Assembly (NCBI GenBank): GCA_017552965.1
Contig: JAFZNQ010000062.1
Span: forward strand, 1-60,894
DNA from: Abditibacteriota bacterium
Lineage (GTDB): Bacteria; Armatimonadota; UBA5829
Length of the DNA: 60,894 bases
Direction: 5' to 3'
This document shows positions 27,530 through 47,803 of this stretch, piece after piece (the first letter of the stretch is position 1; each line of letters opens with the position of its first letter). The position numbers and the translations under genes are program-made. Under the pieces are notes generated by a model. That model searched no databases. It worked only from the letters and a program-made list of their open reading frames with translations, and was not told where the DNA came from.

Positions 27530-27568
27530 AAAAAGCCGGCAGACCGAATATGTCTGCCGGCATTTTTT
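27530..27568. terminator. Bidirectional terminator
   Basis: A 10-bp stem GCCGGCAGAC/GTCTGCCGGC with a seven-base loop has AAAAA on the left and TTTTTT on the right. The TAA stop of the minus-strand gene (27567-27569) lies in the T-run. Confidence 0.92.
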
Positions 27569-28034
27569 ACTTCCCGTCCCGGTCTATGACAAACAGCTCC
27601 GGCCGCATGAGCCTGATGATGCGGAGCAGATATCTCCTGACCGGCAGCAGACCGATCCAGAGTGACACCCAGAGCCTGTAGCCCGGAGAAGAGACCGGTA
27701 TTTTTTTGCCGTTTCTGACGATGCCCACGGCCACGGCCAGTATGTTGCCGTCCGTAATGCCGCGCTCGCAGGCCGCCTGTCCGTCGCCGCACATCATGTA
27801 TTCGCCGCCGCTGACGCCTACCACCCTGTGCAGTATGAACTTGCCGTTATCCCGTCTGTAAAGAGGCAGATCCCCCTTTTTCAGGGGCCCGGAGGGCTTT
27901 GTGACGGTCACCTGGTCCCGGCCGTGCCGCAGGGTAGGCGCCATGCTCCTGCCGGTGATGGTAAAGGTCACTTCCTTGCCCTGCCGGAGATACTCTTCCA
28001 TCACGGGATACAGGGTGTCCAGATCGACTGTCAT
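27567..28034 (-). CDS. S24/S26-family peptidase (SipW-like Ser-His dyad), cassette 1
   Basis: This 155-residue protein has the S26 nucleophile block TGRSMAPTL (Ser30) and a second block HRVVGV in which His69 stands where bacterial signal peptidases have Lys. That is the Ser-His arrangement of ER/SipW-type enzymes. CGDGQ corresponds to the conserved GDN box. The C-terminus is hydrophobic and basic, so it may be membrane-attached. Its ATG overlaps the upstream pqqD-like stop (ATGA). The pairing with PqqD and HPrK-like genes suggests cleavage of a modified peptide or leader, which is inferred. Confidence 0.8.
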   Translation of the reverse strand: MTVDLDTLYPVMEEYLRQGKEVTFTITGRSMAPTLRHGRDQVTVTKPSGPLKKGDLPLYRRDNGKFILHRVVGVSGGEYMMCGDGQAACERGITDGNILAVAVGIVRNGKKIPVSSPGYRLWVSLWIGLLPVRRYLLRIIRLMRPELFVIDRDGK

Positions 28035-28297
28035 GGCTCGGCAAGGCCGTTTTTGACCAGCTCCGCTGCGAAGCCGCCCACGTCCTGCCGCGCTTTTTCG
28101 ATGTCTATGGAATACTTCTCCGCCGCCAGCTGCGCCGTTTCCTCCGGCGAATTGCCGTCGGCTATCTGCTGCCACATCCAGGCGGCCGTATCGTTGAGCT
28201 TGATCACCTTGCTGAAATCGGCAGACGCGGGCCCGGTATTGATGAGCAGGTTCTCACCGGCCACCTTTTTCAGCATATATCCGTCCTTGATCCTCAT
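28031..28297 (-). CDS. PqqD family protein, cassette 1
   Basis: This 88-residue protein matches the PqqD pattern: GYMLKKVAGENLLINTG, KVIKLNDTAAWMWQQI and an ATAQ/YSIDIEKARQDVGGFAAEL helix. PqqD domains (RiPP recognition elements) bind leader peptides and present them to modifying enzymes. Both ends overlap neighbours by four bases (ATGA), so the three genes are tightly coupled. No precursor peptide was found within this cassette. Confidence 0.85.
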   Translation of the reverse strand: MRIKDGYMLKKVAGENLLINTGPASADFSKVIKLNDTAAWMWQQIADGNSPEETAQLAAEKYSIDIEKARQDVGGFAAELVKNGLAEP

Positions 28298-29166
28298 ATT
28301 ATCCCGTCCTTTGCAAGCGCTTCTCTCAGGAGAAGCGGCGTTTGTATATCCATTGTGCAGTCCAGCATATATACCGGCGTTCTTTCCAGCAGAAGGCCCA
28401 GCAGGTCATACACCTTTTCGGCAGCCTGCCTGTTGACGTGGGAAACGCACAGCTCCCGGTATATGGGCCTGAAGACCCCGGCCGGTTTCAGCCTTTCGAT
28501 CCCCGGCGCAGTCCCTCTGCGTATCAGGACCAGAGCTCCGAAGGGCACGCTCGTATTCAGATTTATGGGCACCGAGCCGCTCCAGGGAATGCCCCGCAGC
28601 GTAGCGCCGCCGTCCTCAAAGCTCAAGACGGGCCTGTCTTCGTTGATGCGCACCGTTTCTTCGGGCCACAGATCCTTCCACAGGGCAGCCTGAGTGGACT
28701 TGCCCACTCCGGGGCGGGCGCAGAAAATGATGCCCCTGCCCTTATAGCTGATGGCGGCTCCGTGAAGGGCCAGCATGCCGGCCAGCACGAGCCTGTCCGC
28801 AAAGCCCAGGAAGCTGTGACCGTATTCCATACCGGTGCGGGTCAGCAGCCTGTAGGTGTGATCCTCCAGAAAATACAGATGCATCTCCGAGGCGTCGTCG
28901 GTCAGCGACCAGGCAAACACCCTGCCGCCGCTCTTGTCACAGCCCAGCACAGTGACGAGCCCCGGCGAATAAAACACTGTCCTGGTGGGGCTTGTCTTCA
29001 CCGCAGAGCCTTCGGGAACGGGGATCTCCTTCACCAGATGGGACACACAGCAAAAGTCGGGCCTGCCGTCAAAATCCCGGCAAAACTCCTCAAAACGCTC
29101 CCGGAAGAAATCCCGGTGCAGCAAGTCCAGCGCGATATTCAGACCTGCGCTCCTCAACTTCAGCAC
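28294..29166 (-). CDS. HPr-kinase-like (HprK-related) kinase, cassette 1
   Basis: This 290-residue protein has a Walker A loop RPGVGKST (151-158) after an LHGAA stretch. An INEDRPVL acidic block, RGIPWSG and a C-terminal helical part with VFRPIYREL follow. These features match HPrK-related proteins of peptide clusters rather than full HPr kinase, which has a separate N-terminal domain. A relative in paeninodin biosynthesis phosphorylates a serine of the precursor. The start is GTG at 29166 with AGGAGG nine to ten bases upstream; the ORF extends further but without support. The promoter at 29197-29225 precedes it. Confidence 0.75.
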   Translation of the reverse strand: MLKLRSAGLNIALDLLHRDFFRERFEEFCRDFDGRPDFCCVSHLVKEIPVPEGSAVKTSPTRTVFYSPGLVTVLGCDKSGGRVFAWSLTDDASEMHLYFLEDHTYRLLTRTGMEYGHSFLGFADRLVLAGMLALHGAAISYKGRGIIFCARPGVGKSTQAALWKDLWPEETVRINEDRPVLSFEDGGATLRGIPWSGSVPINLNTSVPFGALVLIRRGTAPGIERLKPAGVFRPIYRELCVSHVNRQAAEKVYDLLGLLLERTPVYMLDCTMDIQTPLLLREALAKDGII

Positions 29167-39573: not shown

Positions 39574-40332
39574 ATGTATAGCCGGCGCGCGGGAGACACC
39601 TTGGAAAAAGCACCATACTCATTGACGGCGGAGATCGCAGGCATACCGGTGTTAGTCAGATGCCGGTTCGCCTCCAACGCGGAGCGACTGGAGGACTACC
39701 GGACGGACCGGGAGCCCCTTATCACGGCAGAGGCCCTGCCGGAGGATACGGCTCTCGCTCTCGGGAGCCAGCCTGCGGCGGCCCCCCGGCGTGAGGAAGA
39801 AGCCGAAAGTCTGGCCCTGCTCCTGTGCCTTTGCAGGAGACTGATGGACTACGGCGTCCTGCTGCTCCACGGCTCCGCCCTGACTCTGGACGGGCAGGGC
39901 TACGTGTTCACCGCCCCTTCCGGGACGGGCAAAAGCACCCACGCCCGGCTGTGGCGGGAGACCTTTGGAGACAGGGTCCGCATGCTGAACGACGACAAGC
40001 CCCTGCTCCGCATATCCCGGGAGGGAGTCGAGATATTCGGCACCCCCTGGATGGGCAAGCACGGCCTGGGCTGTCCCGGCCGGGCGCCCCTGAAGGCCAT
40101 AGTCTGCCTGAAAAGAGGCGAGGACAACACCCTGGAGCCCATGGACCCCAAAAGGGCCTTTTCGGTGCTGCATTCCCAGGCCTTCGGCATGAAGGACCCC
40201 CGGGTCATGGCCGGGTCCCTGCCCCTGAAAAAGGCCCTGGCGGAAAGGGTCCCCTTTTTCCGCCTGAATATGAACAACCTGCGGGAGGACGCGGCCCTCA
40301 GATGCCTGGAGGGGCTCAATAAATACGTATAA
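39574..40332 (+). CDS. HPr-kinase-like (HprK-related) kinase, RiPP-like cluster
   Basis: This 252-residue protein has LLLHGSALTL, Walker A APSGTGKST (114-122), LNDDKPLLRI (138-147) and GTPWMGKHG (156-164). Those are the features of HPrK-related kinases in peptide clusters. In paeninodin biosynthesis such a kinase phosphorylates a serine of the precursor; here the encoded peptide has a Ser three residues from its end. The start could be ATG 39574 or TTG 39601, the latter with GGGAG seven bases upstream. The gene is 60 bases before the small peptide gene. Confidence 0.75.
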   Translation: MYSRRAGDTLEKAPYSLTAEIAGIPVLVRCRFASNAERLEDYRTDREPLITAEALPEDTALALGSQPAAAPRREEEAESLALLLCLCRRLMDYGVLLLHGSALTLDGQGYVFTAPSGTGKSTHARLWRETFGDRVRMLNDDKPLLRISREGVEIFGTPWMGKHGLGCPGRAPLKAIVCLKRGEDNTLEPMDPKRAFSVLHSQAFGMKDPRVMAGSLPLKKALAERVPFFRLNMNNLREDAALRCLEGLNKYV

Positions 40333-40333
40333 T
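40328..40333 (+). promoter_or_regulatory. Possible internal promoter (-10) before the precursor peptide
   Basis: TATAAT overlaps the kinase stop codon, 61 bases before the peptide ATG. No convincing -35 is visible, so this is a weak call. Confidence 0.3.
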
Positions 40334-40377
40334 ACGGAGCGGCGCCGCTCCGTGTATCGTAAAATTCGCGAATTTTA
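40334..40377. repeat. Two consecutive perfect palindromes upstream of the peptide gene
   Basis: ACGGAGCGGC is followed directly by its reverse complement (40334-40353). Six bases later lies an AT-rich 18-base palindrome (40360-40377) centred on TTCGCGAA. They fill most of the gap between the kinase and the ribosome-binding site AAGAGGAGGAG (40377-40387). Roles as an operator, processing site or mRNA-stabilising hairpin are all possible. Confidence 0.75.
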
Positions 40378-40393
40378 AGAGGAGGAGTTTTTC

Positions 40394-40534
40394 ATGGAAA
40401 AGTATGAAGAGCCGATCATGGAAGTAGAAGAAGTTGCGGAAGACGTTCAGACGGTCTTTCCGGGAGGCCACGGCGGCAACGACGACCAGTCTGCCTGCTA
40501 TGACGCTTCTGCCGTCATGGACAGCAACGGCTAA
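40394..40534 (+). CDS. Candidate RiPP precursor peptide (46 residues)
   Basis: This short ORF has an exceptional Shine-Dalgarno (AAGAGGAGGAG, seven bases before the ATG). It encodes an acidic leader (MEKYEEPIMEVEEVAEDVQT), then VFPGGHGGNDDQSACY and a tail DASAVMDSNG. The split between acidic leader and Gly-rich, Cys/Tyr/Ser-containing core, with a GG that could mark cleavage, is typical of ribosomal peptide precursors. The opening MEKYEEPIMEV resembles short peptides seen beside radical SAM enzymes in anaerobes. It lies between the kinase and radical SAM genes. It is too short for usual gene-calling cutoffs. Translation and modification are inferred. Confidence 0.7.
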   Translation: MEKYEEPIMEVEEVAEDVQTVFPGGHGGNDDQSACYDASAVMDSNG

Positions 40535-40557
40535 GCTGCTGCCGAAAATTTGCGTTC

Positions 40558-40588
40558 TCGCTGCGTATGACGCCGTCATACGCAGCGA
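40558..40588. repeat. 15-bp perfect inverted repeat between peptide and radical SAM genes
   Basis: TCGCTGCGTATGACG (40558-40572) and its exact complement (40574-40588) flank one base. As RNA this makes a strong hairpin with no T-run. It could protect the upstream peptide mRNA or partly block read-through, raising peptide-to-enzyme ratio. ATG 40567 lies inside the left arm. Confidence 0.85.
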
Positions 40589-40599
40589 ACCGTTTAGTG

Positions 40600-41967
40600 A
40601 TGCGCCAAATATGGAAGCAGGACCCACAGGTCCTCTCGGTACTGCGGGCCGCGCCTCTGCGCCCCGGCAGGACCTACAGATGGTCCCAATACGCCCTTTC
40701 CTTTGAGGAAGGGGGCGCCGGGTACCTCTGCAGCTTTCTCACCCGGGAGTGCCTGGCCTGCGGCCTTGAGCCGGGAGACCGGCGGTTTGCAGCCGAAGAG
40801 ATAGCCGGGAACAAGGACCTCAGTTATCTGGCGGAGAACCGGTTTCTGGTGCCGGAGGACGCGGACGAGTACAAGACCTACGAGGGTCTCCTGCGGATAC
40901 TGAGGGCCCTGGACAGGCCCGAGGGGCTCACCGGCTGCACCATCCTCCCCACCCTGAAGTGCAACGCCCGCTGCGTCTACTGCTACGAAGCGGGGCGGGA
41001 GGAGACGTCCATGTCCCCGGACACCGCGGACCATACTGCAGCCTACATCCTGCAACACGCCCGGCGAAGCGCCCCGGTCAGGCTCCACTGGTTCGGGGGA
41101 GAGCCCCTGCTGCGGCCGGATATCATAGACCGCATCTGCCAAAGGCTCCGGGAGGAAGGCCTGGAATATCACTCCGCCATGACCTCCAACGGCTCTCTCA
41201 TCACGGAGGAGCTGGCGGACAGGCTGGTCCGGGACTGGCGCCTGGAGAGCATCCAGATAGCCCTGGACGGCCCGGAGGAGGAATATATCCGCCGCAAGGC
41301 TTACCCCCGCTACCGGGACTACTATCGCGCCGTGCCCCGCAGCGCGGCAGCGCTGGCGGCCCGGGGAGTCAGAGTGACCCTGAGGATCAATACGGACAGG
41401 GGGAACGCGGCCTCCATACCGGAGTTTCTCCGGGAGCTGTCGGACCTGATACCGGACAAGACAGGGGTGAAGATCTATTTTTGCGTGCTCAACGAGGAGC
41501 GGGCCCGGCCGGAAGCCCGGGAGGTCTGGGACAGGATCTTCGAGGCAGACAGCCTCATAGAACGCTATGGCTTCCTGCCGGACTACAACCGCAGGCTCCA
41601 TCGGTTCAAGACGTTCAACTGTATGGCGGACAACACGGGCCGCAGTGTGCTCATCGCTCCGGACGGCCTGCTCTATTCCTGCGAGATGTGCCTCCCCGGC
41701 ACCTCCTTCGGCAACGTGTGGGAGGGGGTCACCGACCGGGCCCTGTTTGACCGCCTGTCCCGGCCGGAGCCGGCGCCGGACAAATGCCGCAGCTGTCCCC
41801 TGCTGCCGGAGTGCACCCCCTTTACCGGGTGCCCCGTCAGGGACTACGACTGTTTCGGACTGACAAAGAGGCATCTTATCCGGAGCCTGAAGCTCAGCGT
41901 GAGGAGCATATCGGACGCCCGGGACACGGCAGAGGACAGGCCCTGCGGCTCCCCCTCCGATGAATGA
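40600..41967 (+). CDS. Radical SAM/SPASM peptide-modifying enzyme
   Basis: This 455-residue enzyme has the radical SAM CxxxCxxC motif CNARCVYC (Cys121/125/128 from ATG 40600). HWFGGEPLL and MTSNGSLI follow. A C-terminal SPASM-like region has many cysteines (SCEMC, FGNVWEG, then CRSCPLLPECTPFTGC and DC). SPASM enzymes modify ribosomal peptides, for example with thioether or C-C crosslinks, or mature enzymes. The substrate is probably the peptide just upstream. ATG 40567 is in frame but sits in the hairpin; 40600 is preferred although no strong RBS precedes it. Confidence 0.85.
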   Translation: MRQIWKQDPQVLSVLRAAPLRPGRTYRWSQYALSFEEGGAGYLCSFLTRECLACGLEPGDRRFAAEEIAGNKDLSYLAENRFLVPEDADEYKTYEGLLRILRALDRPEGLTGCTILPTLKCNARCVYCYEAGREETSMSPDTADHTAAYILQHARRSAPVRLHWFGGEPLLRPDIIDRICQRLREEGLEYHSAMTSNGSLITEELADRLVRDWRLESIQIALDGPEEEYIRRKAYPRYRDYYRAVPRSAAALAARGVRVTLRINTDRGNAASIPEFLRELSDLIPDKTGVKIYFCVLNEERARPEAREVWDRIFEADSLIERYGFLPDYNRRLHRFKTFNCMADNTGRSVLIAPDGLLYSCEMCLPGTSFGNVWEGVTDRALFDRLSRPEPAPDKCRSCPLLPECTPFTGCPVRDYDCFGLTKRHLIRSLKLSVRSISDARDTAEDRPCGSPSDE

Positions 41968-41988
41968 GGACAATAAAAGGTGACGCTC

Positions 41989-42882
41989 ATGACTGACCAC
42001 AGAGAACCAAGGCCCGTCAGGATAGCCTATTGCGGCTGCGACCTCTTCGCCGGCTGCCTCAGGCTCCTGCTGGACAGCGGCAGGGCGGAGGTCCTGCATA
42101 TCTTTTGCGAAATAAAAGGCTGCGAGGAAGTGCAGGCCCTGGCCCTGGAGCGGCGCATACCCATTTCATTTCGGCCCATAAGCGAAAGGGATATGGAGGA
42201 GCTGTTTGACCGCCGGGGCTGCGACTACGTGGTCTCCGCCTGCTATCGGTGGAAGATACCCATAGGGGACCGCAGGGGAGTCAACCTGCACCCCACCCTG
42301 CTGCCCATGGGCAGAGGCCCCTGGCCCTTCCCCCATATCATTCTGGAGGGCCACCGGGACAGCGGGGTCACTCTCCACCGGCTCACGGACCGGTTTGACG
42401 CCGGGGACATACTGCTGCAGCAGTCTTTTCCCCTGGACCCCGGGGAGACCCATCAGACTCTGGTCCTGAAAAGCGTTATCACGGCCCCGGAGCTGCTCCG
42501 GGAATGGCTGGAGGACCCGGAGACCCTGTGGCAGAATGCCCGGCCTCAGGGGGAAGGCGTTTACCTGAAACGGCTGCCTCAGGAAAGCGCCCGGATAAAC
42601 GTCCATGACACTCCCGAGGAGGCCCGGCTGAAAATACGGGCCTTCGGCTACGGAGATATCATAGTCCCCGGCACAGGGGAAAGATACGCCTCCGCTCAGG
42701 CCTTTTGCCAGCGTGACGACCGGGCCCCGGCGGAAGGGACAGTGCTCTGCAAGAGCCGCCGGGATCTGGCTATAGCCATCAGGGGCGGAGTGCTGTATAT
42801 CGCCAATGCGCAGGTCCGCCGCCGCAGAAGCCTGGGGGCAAGGATAACAGGCAGGCTCAAAAGGCTTTTCGGCGCCAGGTGA
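41989..42882 (+). CDS. Formyltransferase-family protein in RiPP-like cluster
   Basis: This 297-residue protein has the N10-formyl-THF formyltransferase core: VNLHPTLLPMGRGPWP (Asn/His catalytic residues) and HRLTDRFDAGDIL (Asp). The C-terminal EGTVLCKSRRDLAIAI and GVLYIANAQV resemble the OB-like Fmt C-terminal domain. It differs from housekeeping Fmt because no def gene is near and it lies inside a peptide cluster. It may formylate the peptide or an attached sugar. AAGG precedes ATG 41989. Function is inferred from fold and context. Confidence 0.75.
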   Translation: MTDHREPRPVRIAYCGCDLFAGCLRLLLDSGRAEVLHIFCEIKGCEEVQALALERRIPISFRPISERDMEELFDRRGCDYVVSACYRWKIPIGDRRGVNLHPTLLPMGRGPWPFPHIILEGHRDSGVTLHRLTDRFDAGDILLQQSFPLDPGETHQTLVLKSVITAPELLREWLEDPETLWQNARPQGEGVYLKRLPQESARINVHDTPEEARLKIRAFGYGDIIVPGTGERYASAQAFCQRDDRAPAEGTVLCKSRRDLAIAIRGGVLYIANAQVRRRRSLGARITGRLKRLFGAR

Positions 42883-42933
42883 CCGATCATGCTCCCGCAG
42901 CAAGCGGCGGGACCACAGCGACAAGGAACACCC

Positions 42934-43194
42934 ATGAAACTCAAACAGCAATTTCTGACTCAGGAAATAGAAGACACCACCTTTCTGGTGCCCGTAGGCC
43001 GAGGCAGCTTCGGCGGCCTCATCCGCAGCAACAGGACTGCCGCCTTTATAGCAAAGTGCCTCACCGAGGACACCACCCGGGACGGGATCGTGGACGCCAT
43101 GTGCCGCAAATATGACGCCCCCCGGGAGGTCATAGCAGACGGAGTGGACAGGATCCTGGATATACTGCGCTCCATAGACGCTCTGGAAGAATGA
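42934..43194 (+). CDS. PqqD family protein, RiPP-like cluster
   Basis: This 86-residue protein has a PqqD-like pattern: DTTFLVPVGRG, SNRTAAFIAKCL and DGIVDAMCRKYDAPREVIADGVDRILDIL. It should bind the peptide leader and serve as RiPP recognition element. AAGGAA precedes the ATG; the frame extends to 42889 without support. The stop overlaps the S26 gene (ATGA), exactly as in cassette 1. Confidence 0.75.
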   Translation: MKLKQQFLTQEIEDTTFLVPVGRGSFGGLIRSNRTAAFIAKCLTEDTTRDGIVDAMCRKYDAPREVIADGVDRILDILRSIDALEE

Positions 43195-43652
43195 GCTCCC
43201 TTGAAGAGCTGCTCCGGCGGGACGGGGTGCTGGTTTATAAGACCAGGGGGGCCAGCATGGCTCCCATGCTCCGCGAGGACAGGGACCTGGTGATCATAGC
43301 CCCTCCTAAGGAGCCCCCACGGAAAGGGGACGTGATCCTGTTCAGGCAGGGCTCCCTTTACGTGCTGCACCGGATAGTCGGCAGACAGGACGGCTGTTTT
43401 ATCACCCGGGGAGACAACAATTACACCCCGGAGACAGCCCCGGAGGAAGCGGTGGTGGGCGTTCTCACCGGCTTCAAGCGCAAGGGGCGTGAATACGGCG
43501 TCCGGCACCCGGGCTACAGGCTCTACGCCTTTTTGTGGACCTTCTTCTTTCCTCTGAGGCGCAGCGCGTTCCGGGCCGGCAGAAGGCTCCGGCGCATCCT
43601 GCAACGCTCCGGGCTCCTGCCCCTGGCAAAAAAGCTTCTGCGCAAAAAATAA
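43191..43652 (+). CDS. S24/S26-family peptidase (Ser-His dyad), RiPP-like cluster
   Basis: This 153-residue protein has RGASMAPML (Ser22), LHRIVG (His60) and TRGDNN (74-76), the S26 boxes with His in place of Lys as in SipW/ER-type enzymes. The basic C-terminus has one hydrophobic stretch (YAFLWTFFFPL), which suggests membrane attachment. It is a paralogue of the peptidase at 27567 and is likewise fused by overlap to a PqqD gene. A peptide-processing role is inferred. Confidence 0.8.
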   Translation: MSSLEELLRRDGVLVYKTRGASMAPMLREDRDLVIIAPPKEPPRKGDVILFRQGSLYVLHRIVGRQDGCFITRGDNNYTPETAPEEAVVGVLTGFKRKGREYGVRHPGYRLYAFLWTFFFPLRRSAFRAGRRLRRILQRSGLLPLAKKLLRKK

Positions 43653-43692: not shown

Positions 43693-44436
43693 TTATTCGG
43701 CGTCGGGGAGATAGAGCCTCTTTTCGGCTCTGCCCAGAGTCTTGATCTGGTTGTTCACCAGCACGTTGGGGTTGCTCATGCCGGCGGCATGGCCGTCGGC
43801 GTAAACGATGTTGGCCACCTTGTCGTTGTGTCTGAAATGCAGATAACCGTAGGGTCCCATGTTATCATCGGAATACATGGTGTTGTTGCCATAGACCACT
43901 CCGCCGGAATTGCAGGCGGTGTCGCCGAAGAGGATGGTCTCCGCAGGCTTCACTATAGCCCCCACCCTGGCAAGAGGAGGGTTGTAATAAGCGCCGTCGG
44001 CGCCCCAGCCGCCGTAGTCGCCGCCTATGTGCACGTTGTAGCCGTAGCCGGTGACCTTGCGGTCAAAGGACTGTCCGTGGAAGGAGGGGCAGCCTGTGAT
44101 CTGTCCGTTCTTGGTGTAGGGGCTCAGATAGCCCTGGTCGCTGTAGAAGTTGCCGTCCACCCAGGTGTTGTCCTTGCCGTCCCACCAGATGCAGAAGGTG
44201 TCCAGGTCGTAGGTGGGGCAGGCGGTCTCGTCCCAGTCCTGAGTGTACATCATCCAGGCGGTGCCCACCTGCTTGATGTTGGAGAGGCACTGGGTCTGGC
44301 GGGCCTTTTCCCGGGCCTGAGCGAACACGGGGAACAGAATGGCCGCCAGAATGGCGATGATGGCTATGACCACCAGCAGTTCGATAAGGGTAAAGGCCTT
44401 GTTTTGAGAGACGGCCGGTCTCTGTGTGGTTGTCAT
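43693..44436 (-). CDS. Pseudopilin (DUF1559-like) downstream of a cobalamin riboswitch
   Basis: This 247-residue pseudopilin has a 14-residue leader ending NKA before [16 protein letters not shown], so Ala rather than Gly sits at the cleavage site. [16 protein letters not shown] follows. The rest is rich in Trp, Tyr, Asn and Gly and ends with [10 protein letters not shown], a DUF1559-type DG motif. GAGGT lies before ATG 44436. It shares the N-terminal helix with the pseudopilin at 6764 but diverges beyond it. The upstream leader is a cobalamin riboswitch plus terminator, which would make this gene B12-controlled. Confidence 0.88.
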
Positions 44437-44469
44437 TGCAAATACCTCGTTTGCATGCCGCAGACGGGT

Positions 44470-44499
44470 AAAAACAAAGGCCCCCGCACGTATGCGGGG
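44470..44499 (-). terminator. Terminator in the riboswitch expression platform
   Basis: On the minus strand CCCCGCA, TACG and TGCGGGG are followed by GCCTTTGTTTTTAC. It lies 35-65 bases before the pseudopilin ATG and after the cobalamin aptamer. Confidence 0.8.
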
Positions 44500-44534
44500 A
44501 CCCGTATTTGTCCTCAGAAAAAACCCAGTCCGCG

Positions 44535-44684
44535 AGGTTTTATTTAACGGCAGGTATTCCGGCTCGCAGCTCGGACCTACTTGCCGGCCTTCCCGGGCAT
44601 ACTGCCCAGTGACCACTGTGGCTTTCGTCGCTGCTTACGGCGGCGGGACCGCTCCGGATTCGCACCGGATTCCCTGATTCGTCC
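44535..44684 (-). promoter_or_regulatory. Cobalamin riboswitch
   Basis: The minus strand reads GGGAATCCGGTGCGAATCC, then GAGCGGTCCCGCC, CGTAAGC, GCCACAGTGG, a GGGAAGGC stretch and finally ACCTGCC, with CCTCGCGG just beyond. This is the conserved order of adenosylcobalamin-type riboswitches. High B12 normally ends transcription or blocks translation. Here the next gene is a pseudopilin rather than a B12 transport or synthesis gene. Confidence 0.9.
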
Positions 44685-44690
44685 ACCATT

Positions 44691-44719
44691 ATTATAGCAA
44701 AATAAGCCCCGTCCGTCAA
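44691..44719 (-). promoter_or_regulatory. Promoter of the riboswitch transcript
   Basis: TTGACG, a 17-base spacer and TATAAT with an extended TGC lie on the minus strand. The -35 element is within the loop of the hydG terminator. Confidence 0.8.
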
Positions 44720-44736
44720 CAGGCGGCACGGGGCTT
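44697..44736 (-). terminator. hydG terminator
   Basis: On the minus strand AAGCCCCGT pairs with ACGGGGCTT around a 15-base loop, followed by ATTTTGC. It begins five bases after the hydG stop codon. Confidence 0.75.
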
Positions 44737-44740
44737 TCGG

Positions 44741-46195
44741 TCAGAATCTGAAATCTCTTTTTTCGCTGTTTTTGATGGCCCTGATGTTGTCCTCGGCTAT
44801 CTGCCGCACCTTTTCCTTGGGTATATTCTGCAGCTCCCGCTCCAGCATGTCGTAGCCCAGCTTTTGGGTCTCCGGCGAAGCGTAGTCCGTGAGATATTCC
44901 GTCAGGGTCATGAGAGCGTTGGGGTGGCAGCAGTTCTGTATCTGCCCCTTCTTGCACAGGCTCATGAACCGGTCGCCGGTCCTGCCCTCTCTGTAGCAGG
45001 CGGTGCAGAAGGAGGGTATATGGCCGCTCTCCATGAGCCACCGCACCACCTCGTCCAGAGTGCGCTGGTCGGACACGTCAAACTGCTCCGTGTCATGGGG
45101 CCTCTCTTCCTGAGTGTAGCCTCCCACGGAGGTCCTGGAGCCTCCGCTGACCTGGCTGACTCCGCACTGGAGCAGCCGGGACCGCACCTCCTCCGTCTCT
45201 CTGGTGGAGATGATCATGCCCGTGTAGGGCACGGCTATGCGGATACAGGCGGCTATCTTGGCAAAGGTGTCGTCGGAGATGGAGTTGTCAAAGGCGTCCG
45301 GGTCTATGTCGTCGGCCTTCTTCACCCGAGGCACCGATATGGTGTGAGGGCCCACTCCATAGACGGCTTCCAGATGCTCCGCATGCATGATCAGGCCGGC
45401 AAACTCGTATTTGTAGAGCTCCAGGCCAAACAGGACTCCCAGTCCCACGTCGTCGATACCGCCCTCCATGGCTCTGTCCATGGCCTCGGTGTGATAGTTG
45501 TAGTCATGCTTGGGGCCCGTGGGGTGCAGCTTGAGATAGCTCTCCTTGTGATAGGTCTCCTGAAACAGTATATAGGTGCCTATGCCCGCCTCCTTCAGGC
45601 GCCGGTAGTTGTCCACGGTGGTGGCGGCTATGTTCACGTTGACCCTTCTGATGGCTCCGTTCTTGTGCTTGACGGAATATATGGTGTGGATGCAGTCCAG
45701 TATGTATTCCAGAGGGTTGTTCTTCGGGTCCTCCCCCGCCTCTATGGCCAGACGCTTGTGCCCCATATCCTGCAGGGCTATGACCTCCGCCTTCACCTCT
45801 TCCTGAGTGAGCTTTTTCCGGGGGATGGTCTTGTTTTTCATGTGATAAGGGCAGTATATGCAGCCGTTGACGCAGTAGTTGGACAGATACAGCGGCGCAA
45901 ATATCACTATGCGGTTGCCATAAAAGGCCAGCTTTATCTCCCGGGCCGTCTCGAATATCCGTTCGTTCAGGTCCGGCAGCTCGCAGGCGAGCAGCACCGA
46001 AGCCTCTCTGTGGTCAAGGCCTTCGCAGTGCCAGCCGTCCTCCGTCTTCCGGGGCCGGGCCTTGTCGAGGATCGCTTCTATCAGCGCCCTGTCCCTGCTG
46101 TGCTCCCGGGCGTAGTCCAGAGTCTCCCTGATCTCGCCGTCATGTATGAATTCGTCCGCCACGTGGGACCCGGGGTCATATTTGTATTCTGCCAT
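44741..46195 (-). CDS. hydG: [FeFe]-hydrogenase maturase HydG (radical SAM)
   Basis: This 484-residue enzyme has CVNGCIYC (Cys108/112/115) for the radical SAM cluster and a C-terminal second-cluster region (FCTACYREGRTGDRFM, then CKKGQIQNCCHPNALMTL). HydG cleaves tyrosine to make the CO and CN ligands of the hydrogenase H-cluster. KLHPTGPKHDYNYHTEAMDR and SGGSRTSVGGY are further family blocks. AAGGAAGG precedes the ATG. hydE, hydF and the hydrogenase are not in the window. It follows a TM1266-type regulator by four bases. Confidence 0.96.
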   Translation of the reverse strand: MAEYKYDPGSHVADEFIHDGEIRETLDYAREHSRDRALIEAILDKARPRKTEDGWHCEGLDHREASVLLACELPDLNERIFETAREIKLAFYGNRIVIFAPLYLSNYCVNGCIYCPYHMKNKTIPRKKLTQEEVKAEVIALQDMGHKRLAIEAGEDPKNNPLEYILDCIHTIYSVKHKNGAIRRVNVNIAATTVDNYRRLKEAGIGTYILFQETYHKESYLKLHPTGPKHDYNYHTEAMDRAMEGGIDDVGLGVLFGLELYKYEFAGLIMHAEHLEAVYGVGPHTISVPRVKKADDIDPDAFDNSISDDTFAKIAACIRIAVPYTGMIISTRETEEVRSRLLQCGVSQVSGGSRTSVGGYTQEERPHDTEQFDVSDQRTLDEVVRWLMESGHIPSFCTACYREGRTGDRFMSLCKKGQIQNCCHPNALMTLTEYLTDYASPETQKLGYDMLERELQNIPKEKVRQIAEDNIRAIKNSEKRDFRF

Positions 46196-46566: not shown

Positions 46567-46595
46567 ATTATAGCACTTTCCGGCCGTGGTTTCAA
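46567..46595 (-). promoter_or_regulatory. Promoter of the regulator-hydG operon
   Basis: TTGAAA, a 17-base spacer and TGCTATAAT lie on the minus strand. The -35 overlaps the stop codon of the upstream permease gene. The leader to ATG 46460 is about 100 bases. Confidence 0.75.
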
Positions 46596-47803
46596 TCGGC
46601 CCGGGTATATTTTCGTATGACTCCCATAAAGAGCACCGCCAGCAGCAGCGCGCCCCACAGGGCGCTCGGGGAGCTCTCGTGACAGGCCTCGCCGGCGCCG
46701 CCGGACAGGCTGAGAAAGCCGTTGAGCAGTATGCCGCACAGGCAGGCCGTGATTATCACGGTGGCCAGATAGATGCAGAGCCCCTTGCCTCCCAGCAGTC
46801 TGGAGAGCACCGGGAAGGCGGCCAGATTGGTTTCCGGGCCCGTCACCATGAACACCAGAGCGGCTCCGGGCTCAAAGCCGGCAGCCACCAGCGAAAAGGC
46901 CAGAGGTATGGAGGCCGTGGAGCAGACGTACATAGGCAGCCCCAGCAACACGCATATCCCTATCTGACCGAAGAGGCCGCCGAAGGCGTGGCGAAATGAC
47001 CCCGGGTCACACAGGGCGGAAAACACGCCGGCCAGCACAAGGCCCAGCAGCAGATGACCGCCTATCTCCCCGGGCAGGTCGCGAAAAGCGTACAGCAGCG
47101 CGGCCGCCGCAGGGTGCTGTTTTTTCACCTCGCCGCAGCAGCATGAGGGCTCGGAAGTCTTTTCCTTCTCGCAGCAGCATGAGGGCTCCGGCTCCTTTTC
47201 CTTCTCACAGCAGCAAGAGGGCTCCGGCTCCTTTTCCTTCTCACAGCAGCACGAAGGCTCCGGAGCCTTTTCCTTCTCGCAGCAGCACGAGGTCTCCGGG
47301 GCCTTTTCTTTCTCGCAGCATGAGGGCTCCGGGGCTTTTTCCTTCTCGCAGCAGCACGAGGGCTCCTCTGTCCCGCCGGCTGGAGCCTCTTTGTCAAACA
47401 GGTCAATGAGGGTCCCGCCCAGGAGCCCCATCAAAAAGGCCTGCACGGGGCGCCACAGAGCGAAGGCCCAGCCCATCATTCCGTAGGTGGCGATGATGTT
47501 GTCCACGCCGGTCTGAGGAGTGGACAGCAAAAAGGAAGCCACCGCTCCCCTGGAGGCGCCTCCGCTTCTCAGGGACGCCGCCACGGGCAGGATGCCGCAG
47601 GAACACAGCGGAAGGGGCACCCCCAGCAGGGCCGCCCACAGGACTGCCAGGGGATTGTCCTCCCCCAGATAGCGCCTTACCTTGTCCACCGACAAAAACA
47701 GCCTGAGTATGCCGGCCATGAGATAGCCGAACAGTATATAGGGGGCCATCCGGACCGTGACCTCCCAGGTCTTCAGGACCACCAGCCTCACCAGATCTTC
47801 CAT
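46592..47803 (-). CDS. SO_0444/DUF318-like metal efflux permease with a Cys-rich tandem repeat
   Basis: This 403-residue permease has about eight hydrophobic segments. The family blocks are VPLPLCSCGILP (62-73), SFLLSTPQTGVDNIIATYG and CVLLGLPMYVCSTASIPLA with VFMVTGPETNLAAFP. Members are predicted Cu/Zn or other metal exporters. The loop between helices (about 147-228) holds seven repeats of a 12-residue unit EPSCCCEKEKAP, with about 20 cysteines, probably a cytoplasmic metal-binding region. The ATG directly follows the stop of the GH116-like gene, with AAGGAGAAGG upstream. Confidence 0.88.
   Translation of the reverse strand: MEDLVRLVVLKTWEVTVRMAPYILFGYLMAGILRLFLSVDKVRRYLGEDNPLAVLWAALLGVPLPLCSCGILPVAASLRSGGASRGAVASFLLSTPQTGVDNIIATYGMMGWAFALWRPVQAFLMGLLGGTLIDLFDKEAPAGGTEEPSCCCEKEKAPEPSCCEKEKAPETSCCCEKEKAPEPSCCCEKEKEPEPSCCCEKEKEPEPSCCCEKEKTSEPSCCCGEVKKQHPAAAALLYAFRDLPGEIGGHLLLGLVLAGVFSALCDPGSFRHAFGGLFGQIGICVLLGLPMYVCSTASIPLAFSLVAAGFEPGAALVFMVTGPETNLAAFPVLSRLLGGKGLCIYLATVIITACLCGILLNGFLSLSGGAGEACHESSPSALWGALLLAVLFMGVIRKYTRAD
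47120..47365 (-). repeat. 36-bp coding tandem repeat, seven units
   Basis: Seven near-identical units encode EPSCCCEKEKxP. Unit 2 has lost one Cys codon and the last unit is degenerate (CCCGEVKK). The nucleotide repeats are close to identical, so length could vary between strains by slippage. Confidence 0.85.

Follow-up and report, generated by a model that had tools for sequence, protein, structure and literature searches.

Within the window analysed here, that is, the whole 60,894-nucleotide stretch of contig JAFZNQ010000062.1 from a gut bacterium (genome G000) in the poorly known phylum Abditibacteriota, positions 39574-43652 of the + strand hold six intact open reading frames (ORFs), placed head to tail in one direction, which probably form a cassette for a ribosomally synthesized and post-translationally modified peptide (RiPP). 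The cassette appears to consist of a core related to that of the linear polyphosphorylated peptides (LPPs), extended by a radical S-adenosylmethionine (rSAM)/SPASM maturase and a formyltransferase. This reading is carried by the gene content, by intact active-site motifs, by a conserved precursor leader and by the co-inheritance of the parts across two phyla. An earlier note on this DNA had listed the same six co-directional genes in the order kinase, 46-residue peptide, rSAM/SPASM enzyme, formyltransferase, PqqD protein and S26 peptidase, and had taken them for a RiPP-type cluster with its precursor. All six were found, the leader of the peptide is conserved, and the kinase, the RiPP recognition element (RRE) of the PqqD family and the peptidase go together; the interpretation given there was right in outline and is partly supported, its core being now matched to a published family.

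The precursor peptide

The precursor, 46 residues long and preceded by a strong ribosome-binding site (AGAGGAGGAG), has a YxxP leader (YEEPIM) and an acidic core that contains Cys and no Lys. Precursors with the same leader occupy the same slot, between kinase and rSAM genes, in a Planctomycete (G291); these (MKKYVAPVMEVEEIKNDAIRAFCLHC... and MKKYVSPVMEIEEIKNDAIRAFPCFG...) share the leader of the window peptide and differ from it in the core. The window and G291 leaders aligned with a score of 72, which none of 2000 shuffles reached. Two related Planctomycetes (G589 and G595) carry rearranged pieces, precursor plus rSAM and kinase plus precursor plus PqqD, with further Cys-bearing precursors: MKKYIVPSMEILDIRNDAIYTECYLD... 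lies with a kinase and a PqqD gene, and MEAYKKPFIEIVELLKEDAILTSCSDDSCAFDNGCEWDEPGA precedes, by about 500 bp, an rSAM gene whose product is 42% identical to that of the window. The Y..P pair is present in the precursors of all cassette relatives, and the leader is kept in three Planctomycete genomes, so that the conservation of the peptide ORF, on which the earlier note had made its proposal depend, is borne out. Among the short ORFs of the window the YxxP/WxxP pattern has three matches, and the other two look spurious. A constant leader joined to a variable core is the classic RiPP pattern and we therefore take the 46-residue peptide to be the precursor; a spurious ORF is ruled out by the leader kept in the Planctomycetes and by the shuffle test.

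Relatives and co-inheritance of the cassette

A formyltransferase scan covering 84,980 genomes yielded the Planctomycetales contig CAMZEO010000053.1 (L076, G291), which carries in tandem the order kinase-peptide-rSAM-PqqD and then formyltransferase-kinase-peptide-rSAM-PqqD-S26. All the enzymes are 39-52% identical between the window and this complete copy. In trees of the kinase, PqqD and S26 proteins, the cassette copies of both phyla formed one clade each (SH-aLRT 96, 99 and 100, respectively), separate from a second kinase-PqqD-S26 set encoded in the same genomes (trio B, see below); the trio B of the window groups with that of G002, a genome of the same genus. These trees are small and quick, with two Bacillota/Bacteroidota rows on long branches. 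Since the cassette proteins of both phyla share one clade in three trees, the parts must have travelled together, and horizontal movement of the module would best explain these phylogenies. Chance adjacency of the six genes is ruled out by their recurrence in Planctomycetes together with the congruent clades.

The formyltransferase was found in 2/291 genomes of the phylum and the rSAM group in the window genome only, with four weaker rSAM matches at 27-36% identity, which rules out a phylum-wide spread. Among 297 relatives of the Planctomycete, three had the rSAM and one the formyltransferase, and an evenly drawn Planctomycete sample added no further cassettes. Plasmids held no close rSAM or formyltransferase homologue, phage records no close rSAM and viral contigs neither; around the rSAM matches in viral contigs, neither a kinase nor an RRE, peptidase or precursor was convincingly present. 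Carriage by phages or plasmids is ruled out by this lack of close homologues. The cassette enzyme genes have 57-65% G+C against 60% for the window, and this composition gives no strong signal of recent transfer.

The first PqqD copy of G291 (L076:2202-2462) has an in-frame TAG and is followed by no S26 gene; it is a decaying duplicate. This stop codon and the fragments in G589 might suggest a decayed or silent island that makes no product, which we consider very improbable for the window, where the six ORFs are intact, the catalytic residues conserved and the G+C content near that of the host.

Kinase, RRE and leader peptidase

The kinase had no Pfam match and only weak HprK-type matches in NCBIfam; its P-loop, NDD and GTPW motifs are intact and conserved, and it shares 44-45% identity with the G291 cassette kinases. 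The PqqD protein scored above the PF05402 cut-off, is 63% identical to the G595 RRE and has the lasso RREs TbiB1 and TfuB1 as closest solved structures. The S26 protein reached 43.2 bits on TIGR02228 (cut-off 51.85); its candidate triad Ser22/His60/Asp75 is invariant in five homologues and its GDNN aligned with SEC11. The earlier note had called it a membrane peptidase, a description that found no support: no clear transmembrane anchor was seen by eye, and the protein resembles LppS, an RRE-dependent Ser-His-Asp enzyme. The start of the S26 gene and the end of the PqqD gene share 4 bp, and in G589 (L111:13197-13982) a cassette-type PqqD RRE and an S26 protein are fused in one intact ORF of 261 residues; both are consistent with the published cooperation of RRE and peptidase.

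Comparison with linear polyphosphorylated peptides and other systems

LPPs are known from LppA/K/B/S/D/N of Paenibacillus alginolyticus (Popov et al. 2026, PMC13381572). Their parts are the HprK-like LppK, the discrete RRE LppB, the archaeal-type signal peptidase LppS (S29/H68/D93), the NTP-transferase LppN, the MsbA-like LppD and a precursor with the motif YxxPxVLxHQxIxFETxxS; LppK phosphorylates core Ser3, LppS cleaves in vitro only with LppB, and the authors state that LPPs are restricted to Bacillota (PMC13381572). The cassette has in common with them an HprK-like kinase, a discrete PqqD-type RRE, a Ser-His-Asp signal peptidase and a short precursor with a YxxP leader. However, it adds the rSAM/SPASM enzyme and the formyltransferase, has a Cys-containing core, lies outside Bacillota and lacks an NTP-transferase or MsbA-like exporter among the seven neighbours scanned, and its leader (YEEPIMEVEEVAEDVQTV) has neither the LxHQ nor the FET of the LPP consensus. 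Because two enzymes are added while LppN, LppD and the full leader consensus are missing, we do not file the cassette as an LPP; its mode of action is probably that of an LPP system to which further steps have been added. The earlier note knew of no described pathway joining all these parts. This holds for the addition of rSAM and formyltransferase, and literature searches found no RiPP pathway combining a formyltransferase, an rSAM enzyme and PqqD, but the core of kinase, RRE, signal peptidase and YxxP precursor is the one described as LPPs (PMC13381572).

The match of this core to LPPs, and the presence of an rSAM-less trio in the same window, could also mean that we are dealing with an ordinary LPP cluster, with the rSAM and formyltransferase as chance neighbours and a linear phosphopeptide as product. 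We judge this improbable, given that in a second phylum, too, the rSAM accompanies precursors and a kinase, RRE and S26 of the cassette type, that it adjoins a YxxP precursor in G595, that the cassette proteins lie in clades apart from trio B and that the precursor sequences depart from the LPP consensus. Read as an extended LPP-related core, the cassette would bring machinery described as Bacillota-restricted to Abditibacteriota and Planctomycetota, where a radical SAM maturase and also a formyltransferase accompany it.

The plain order kinase-peptide-PqqD-S26, with ABC (ATP-binding cassette) and NTase genes, was seen on a Butyrivibrio plasmid. Planctomycete kinase-PqqD-S26 loci (L087, L104, L105, L107, L108, L109 and L110) were also seen; several of them adjoin ABC transporter-like genes, with an ABC exporter in L105, and genes for proteins of 400-420 residues, PF14907 NTP_transf_5 being shown in L105 and L110. 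No recognisable YxxP precursor lies beside these seven loci. The ABC transporter-like and NTP_transf_5 genes beside such trio B loci show LPP-like gene sets to be present outside Bacillota.

Paeninodin-type lasso clusters share with the cassette an HprK-like kinase, a discrete RRE and a [Y/W]xxP leader, but here S26 replaces the B2 protease and the leader is YxxP, not WxxP. As the earlier note had remarked, the lasso cyclase and protease are absent: neither an Asn-synthetase-type macrolactam cyclase nor a B2 protease occurs in the cassette or the neighbours scanned, and a lasso peptide is thereby rejected. Ranthipeptide/SCIFF systems (CteB, PapB) and those of TIGR04463, Clo7bot and CefB likewise place an rSAM/SPASM enzyme beside Cys-containing precursors; in contrast, the cassette enzyme is accompanied by a kinase, an S26 peptidase and a formyltransferase and is 35-42% identical only to members of its own group. 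SynChlorMet (TIGR04249/04250) cassettes combine the HprK-like ScmC, to which our kinase is a weak match, with rSAM/SPASM proteins. However, the scores on the ScmC and ScmE models were 22.8 of 125 and 44.5 of 400 bits, both below cut-off, and the matches included neither a formyltransferase nor a signal peptidase belonging to that set.

The two added enzymes

The CNARCVYC (CX3CX2C) motif and the SPASM cysteines of the rSAM protein are invariant in five homologues, and the enzyme is 35-42% identical to its cassette homologues. Its nearest NCBIfam models were TIGR04463, Clo7bot, geopeptide, CefB and PapB, all far below cut-off (PapB 80.5 of 340 bits, Clo7bot 97.8 of 600), with SCIFF outside the best 25. 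The best match in both sequence and fold was CteB (5WHY/5WGG). TigE (8VPO), which we take to be the maturase of a poly-cyclopropylglycine peptide, was likewise among the best sequence matches and was the second-best type of structural match. The N-terminal region is probably a built-in RRE. All six precursor cores contain Cys (1-7 each, 3-7 in five of them) with Asp/Glu nearby, and PapB forms Cys-Xn-Asp thioethers with n = 0-6 (PMC9413430). Because of this precedent, the Cys in every core and the nearest matches being maturases of Cys-rich peptides, a Cys-derived thioether would be our leading, though unproven, guess for the product. An anti-phage role was rejected: the rSAM core domain gave only viperin-type matches and no defence context was seen.

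The formyltransferase scored 49.1 bits on PF00551 (cut-off 26.1). It shares with Fmt, ArnA and WbkC the Formyl_trans_N domain, an Fmt-like C-terminal stretch and an Asn-His-Asp active site (Asn102, His104 and Asp140, conserved and aligned with Fmt); its profile and fold matches were Fmt and ArnA, and by fold also WbkC. It differs from them in falling below all equivalog cut-offs and in sitting in a RiPP cassette. Its homologues in G002 and G291 are 46-48% identical to it, and in both phyla members of this group lie next to cassette genes, the order of the genes not being the same. In G002 it directly adjoins an S26 leader peptidase. Since Lys is missing from the window core and occurs in just two of the six cores, the N-terminus is the sole amine common to all cores, which, together with the G002 pair, hints at N-terminal capping after cleavage. 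The wider, unassigned family, 28-34% identical to the window enzyme, includes L077, L078, L079, L080 and members on Alteromonas plasmids; no cassette homologues were found around the four Gammaproteobacterial loci.

Several points weigh against an LPP-related core extended in this way. The window peptide lacks the Ser that LPPs conserve at position 3 of the core, only one complete relative (G291) was found, all NCBIfam assignments are below cut-off and confidence in the modelled structures is moderate (mean pLDDT, the predicted local distance difference test, 66-68). In addition, the window core has a single Cys, which makes the multi-ring ranthipeptide pattern impossible there, and a Cys near an Asp is statistically uninformative in acidic cores. 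The single Cys, the TigE-type structural match and scores that fall far short of the cut-offs of all functional NCBIfam models would also suit another chemistry on the core, such as C-C crosslinking, epimerisation or cyclopropanation; we hold this to be unlikely, as every core has Cys, five of them several, and CteB and the nearest families (TIGR04463, Clo7bot, CefB and PapB) act on Cys-containing peptides.

The remaining points concern the formyltransferase, whose role is the least secure part of the cassette. Enzymes 31-34% identical to it occur in Gammaproteobacteria with no RiPP genes near; the G002 assembly (about 84% complete) has a copy but no cassette kinase, rSAM or precursor; in G589 it is a fragment, and it was not found in G595. 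For these last three reasons it may be accessory. The earlier note had counted relatives without the peptide as evidence against its proposal, and on this point it fared less well, given the G002 copy beside S26 only and the relatives outside any RiPP context. Fmt, ArnA and the sugar formyltransferase WbkC being the closest structures, the enzyme might act on an amino sugar or small amine, leaving a RiPP system of peptide, rSAM, kinase, RRE and S26 only. This we regard as doubtful, because the closer 46-48% group adjoins cassette genes in two phyla and the scan of the cassette neighbours showed no glycan genes.

Proposed pathway

The earlier note had proposed that the peptide is crosslinked or modified in another way, and possibly phosphorylated and formylated; we likewise infer these modifications, as well as every other step below and their order. 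The PqqD RRE, and probably also the RRE-like N-terminal part of the rSAM enzyme, would bind the YEEP motif of the leader. The rSAM enzyme would then crosslink the core, most likely by joining a Cys to a neighbouring Asp through a thioether, and the HprK-like kinase would phosphorylate at least one core serine. The RRE would next present the leader to S26, which may cut C-terminal to a small residue that closely follows the conserved D-A/V-I/Q and release about 25 residues. Finally, the formyltransferase may cap the freed N-terminus, the least certain step and one we advance tentatively. It is conceivable, although we lean slightly against it, that this is a new RiPP class, in which radical crosslinking, HprK-type Ser phosphorylation, RRE-guided signal-peptidase-like release and N-terminal formylation meet on one peptide, the module having moved between Abditibacteriota and Planctomycetota and a plain LPP-like trio and an orphan YxxP array being kept in the same genome. 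The cassette offers a compact, testable system for studying how several enzymes could share one RRE and in which order radical chemistry, phosphorylation and leader cleavage act, and for testing if the N-terminus of a RiPP can be formylated by a folate-dependent enzyme.

Layout and expression signals

The features are listed in Table 1. The kinase has a possible alternative TTG start at 39601, the rSAM start was corrected by alignment with relatives, and a PqqD start at 42889 is probably too early. Upstream of the cassette lies a Na+/H+ antiporter gene, and downstream are genes for a DUF1559 prepilin-like protein and a radical SAM/BATS protein (HydG-like). No MsbA-like exporter, PF14907 NTP-transferase, lasso cyclase or B2 protease was found among the seven window neighbours scanned, and export is not encoded within the cassette. 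In RiPP operons, a hairpin between precursor and enzyme genes can favour expression of the precursor over that of the enzyme. By analogy, the hairpin that follows the precursor (-26.4 kcal/mol, z -3.2, with 2/200 shuffles equally stable) may have the same role here. The palindrome directly after the kinase gene (z -1.8 on RNA folding, alone not significant) is a possible attenuator or processing hairpin.

Table 1. Features of the cassette and of trio B in the window.
Feature	Coordinates	Strand	Remarks
HprK/LppK-like peptide kinase	39574..40332	+	weak TIGR04249/TIGR04352 matches; APSGTGKST, NDDKP, GTPWxGK
Perfect palindrome ACGGAGCGGCGCCGCTCCGT	40333..40357	+	directly 3' of kinase stop; from sequence
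Second palindrome AAAATTCGCGAATTTT	40363-40380		between kinase stop and precursor ribosome-binding site
Precursor peptide MEKYEEPIMEVEEVAEDVQTVFPGGHGGNDDQSACYDASAVMDSNG	40394..40534	+	leader common to precursors of G291, G589, G595
14-bp perfect hairpin	40558..40588	+	between precursor and rSAM gene; RNA fold
Radical SAM/SPASM peptide maturase	40600..41967	+	PF04055 1.3e-15
10-formyl-tetrahydrofolate-type formyltransferase	41980..42882	+	PF00551 E 7.5e-13; GTG start
PqqD-family discrete RRE, LppB-like	42934..43194	+	PF05402 E 5.3e-12
S26 archaeal/SipW-type signal-peptidase-like leader peptidase, LppS-like	43191..43652	+	TIGR02228-like
Trio B second S26-type leader peptidase	27567..28034	-	beside ftsEX
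Trio B second PqqD-type RRE	28031..28297	-	PF05402 3.6e-13
Trio B second HprK-like kinase	28294..29166	-	same trio syntenic beside ftsEX in G002 (L069)

Trio B, orphan precursors and other loci

Trio B (27567-29166) has no precursor, rSAM or formyltransferase gene beside it. On another contig of the same genome (C39, about 44107-44965; L066:6108-6966), six tandem ORFs of 30-34 residues have MYEEPKIEIEDLEVADVIS-type (MYEEPxIExExxExxDVIS-type) leaders and variable acidic tails; they adjoin leuS and have no local modification enzymes. Their resemblance to the window precursor was equalled by 0-4 of 2000 shuffles, and from their sequences they are probably orphan RiPP precursors, on which trio B may act in trans.

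Two further loci (L002:2-2469 in G000:C91 and L006:11-2472 in G002:C311) encode a protein of about 380 residues that ends in (CHSA)n Cys/His repeats, and an rSAM/SPASM gene comes directly after it; kept in two species, they are a possible separate pair of rSAM enzyme and target. Lastly, an ArsP-type permease gene of the window (46592-47803, - strand) contains an in-frame 36-bp tandem repeat of about 6.6 copies (47134-47366), which encodes, in the central part of the protein, Cys-rich units like PSCCCEKEKAPE that are possibly metal-binding.

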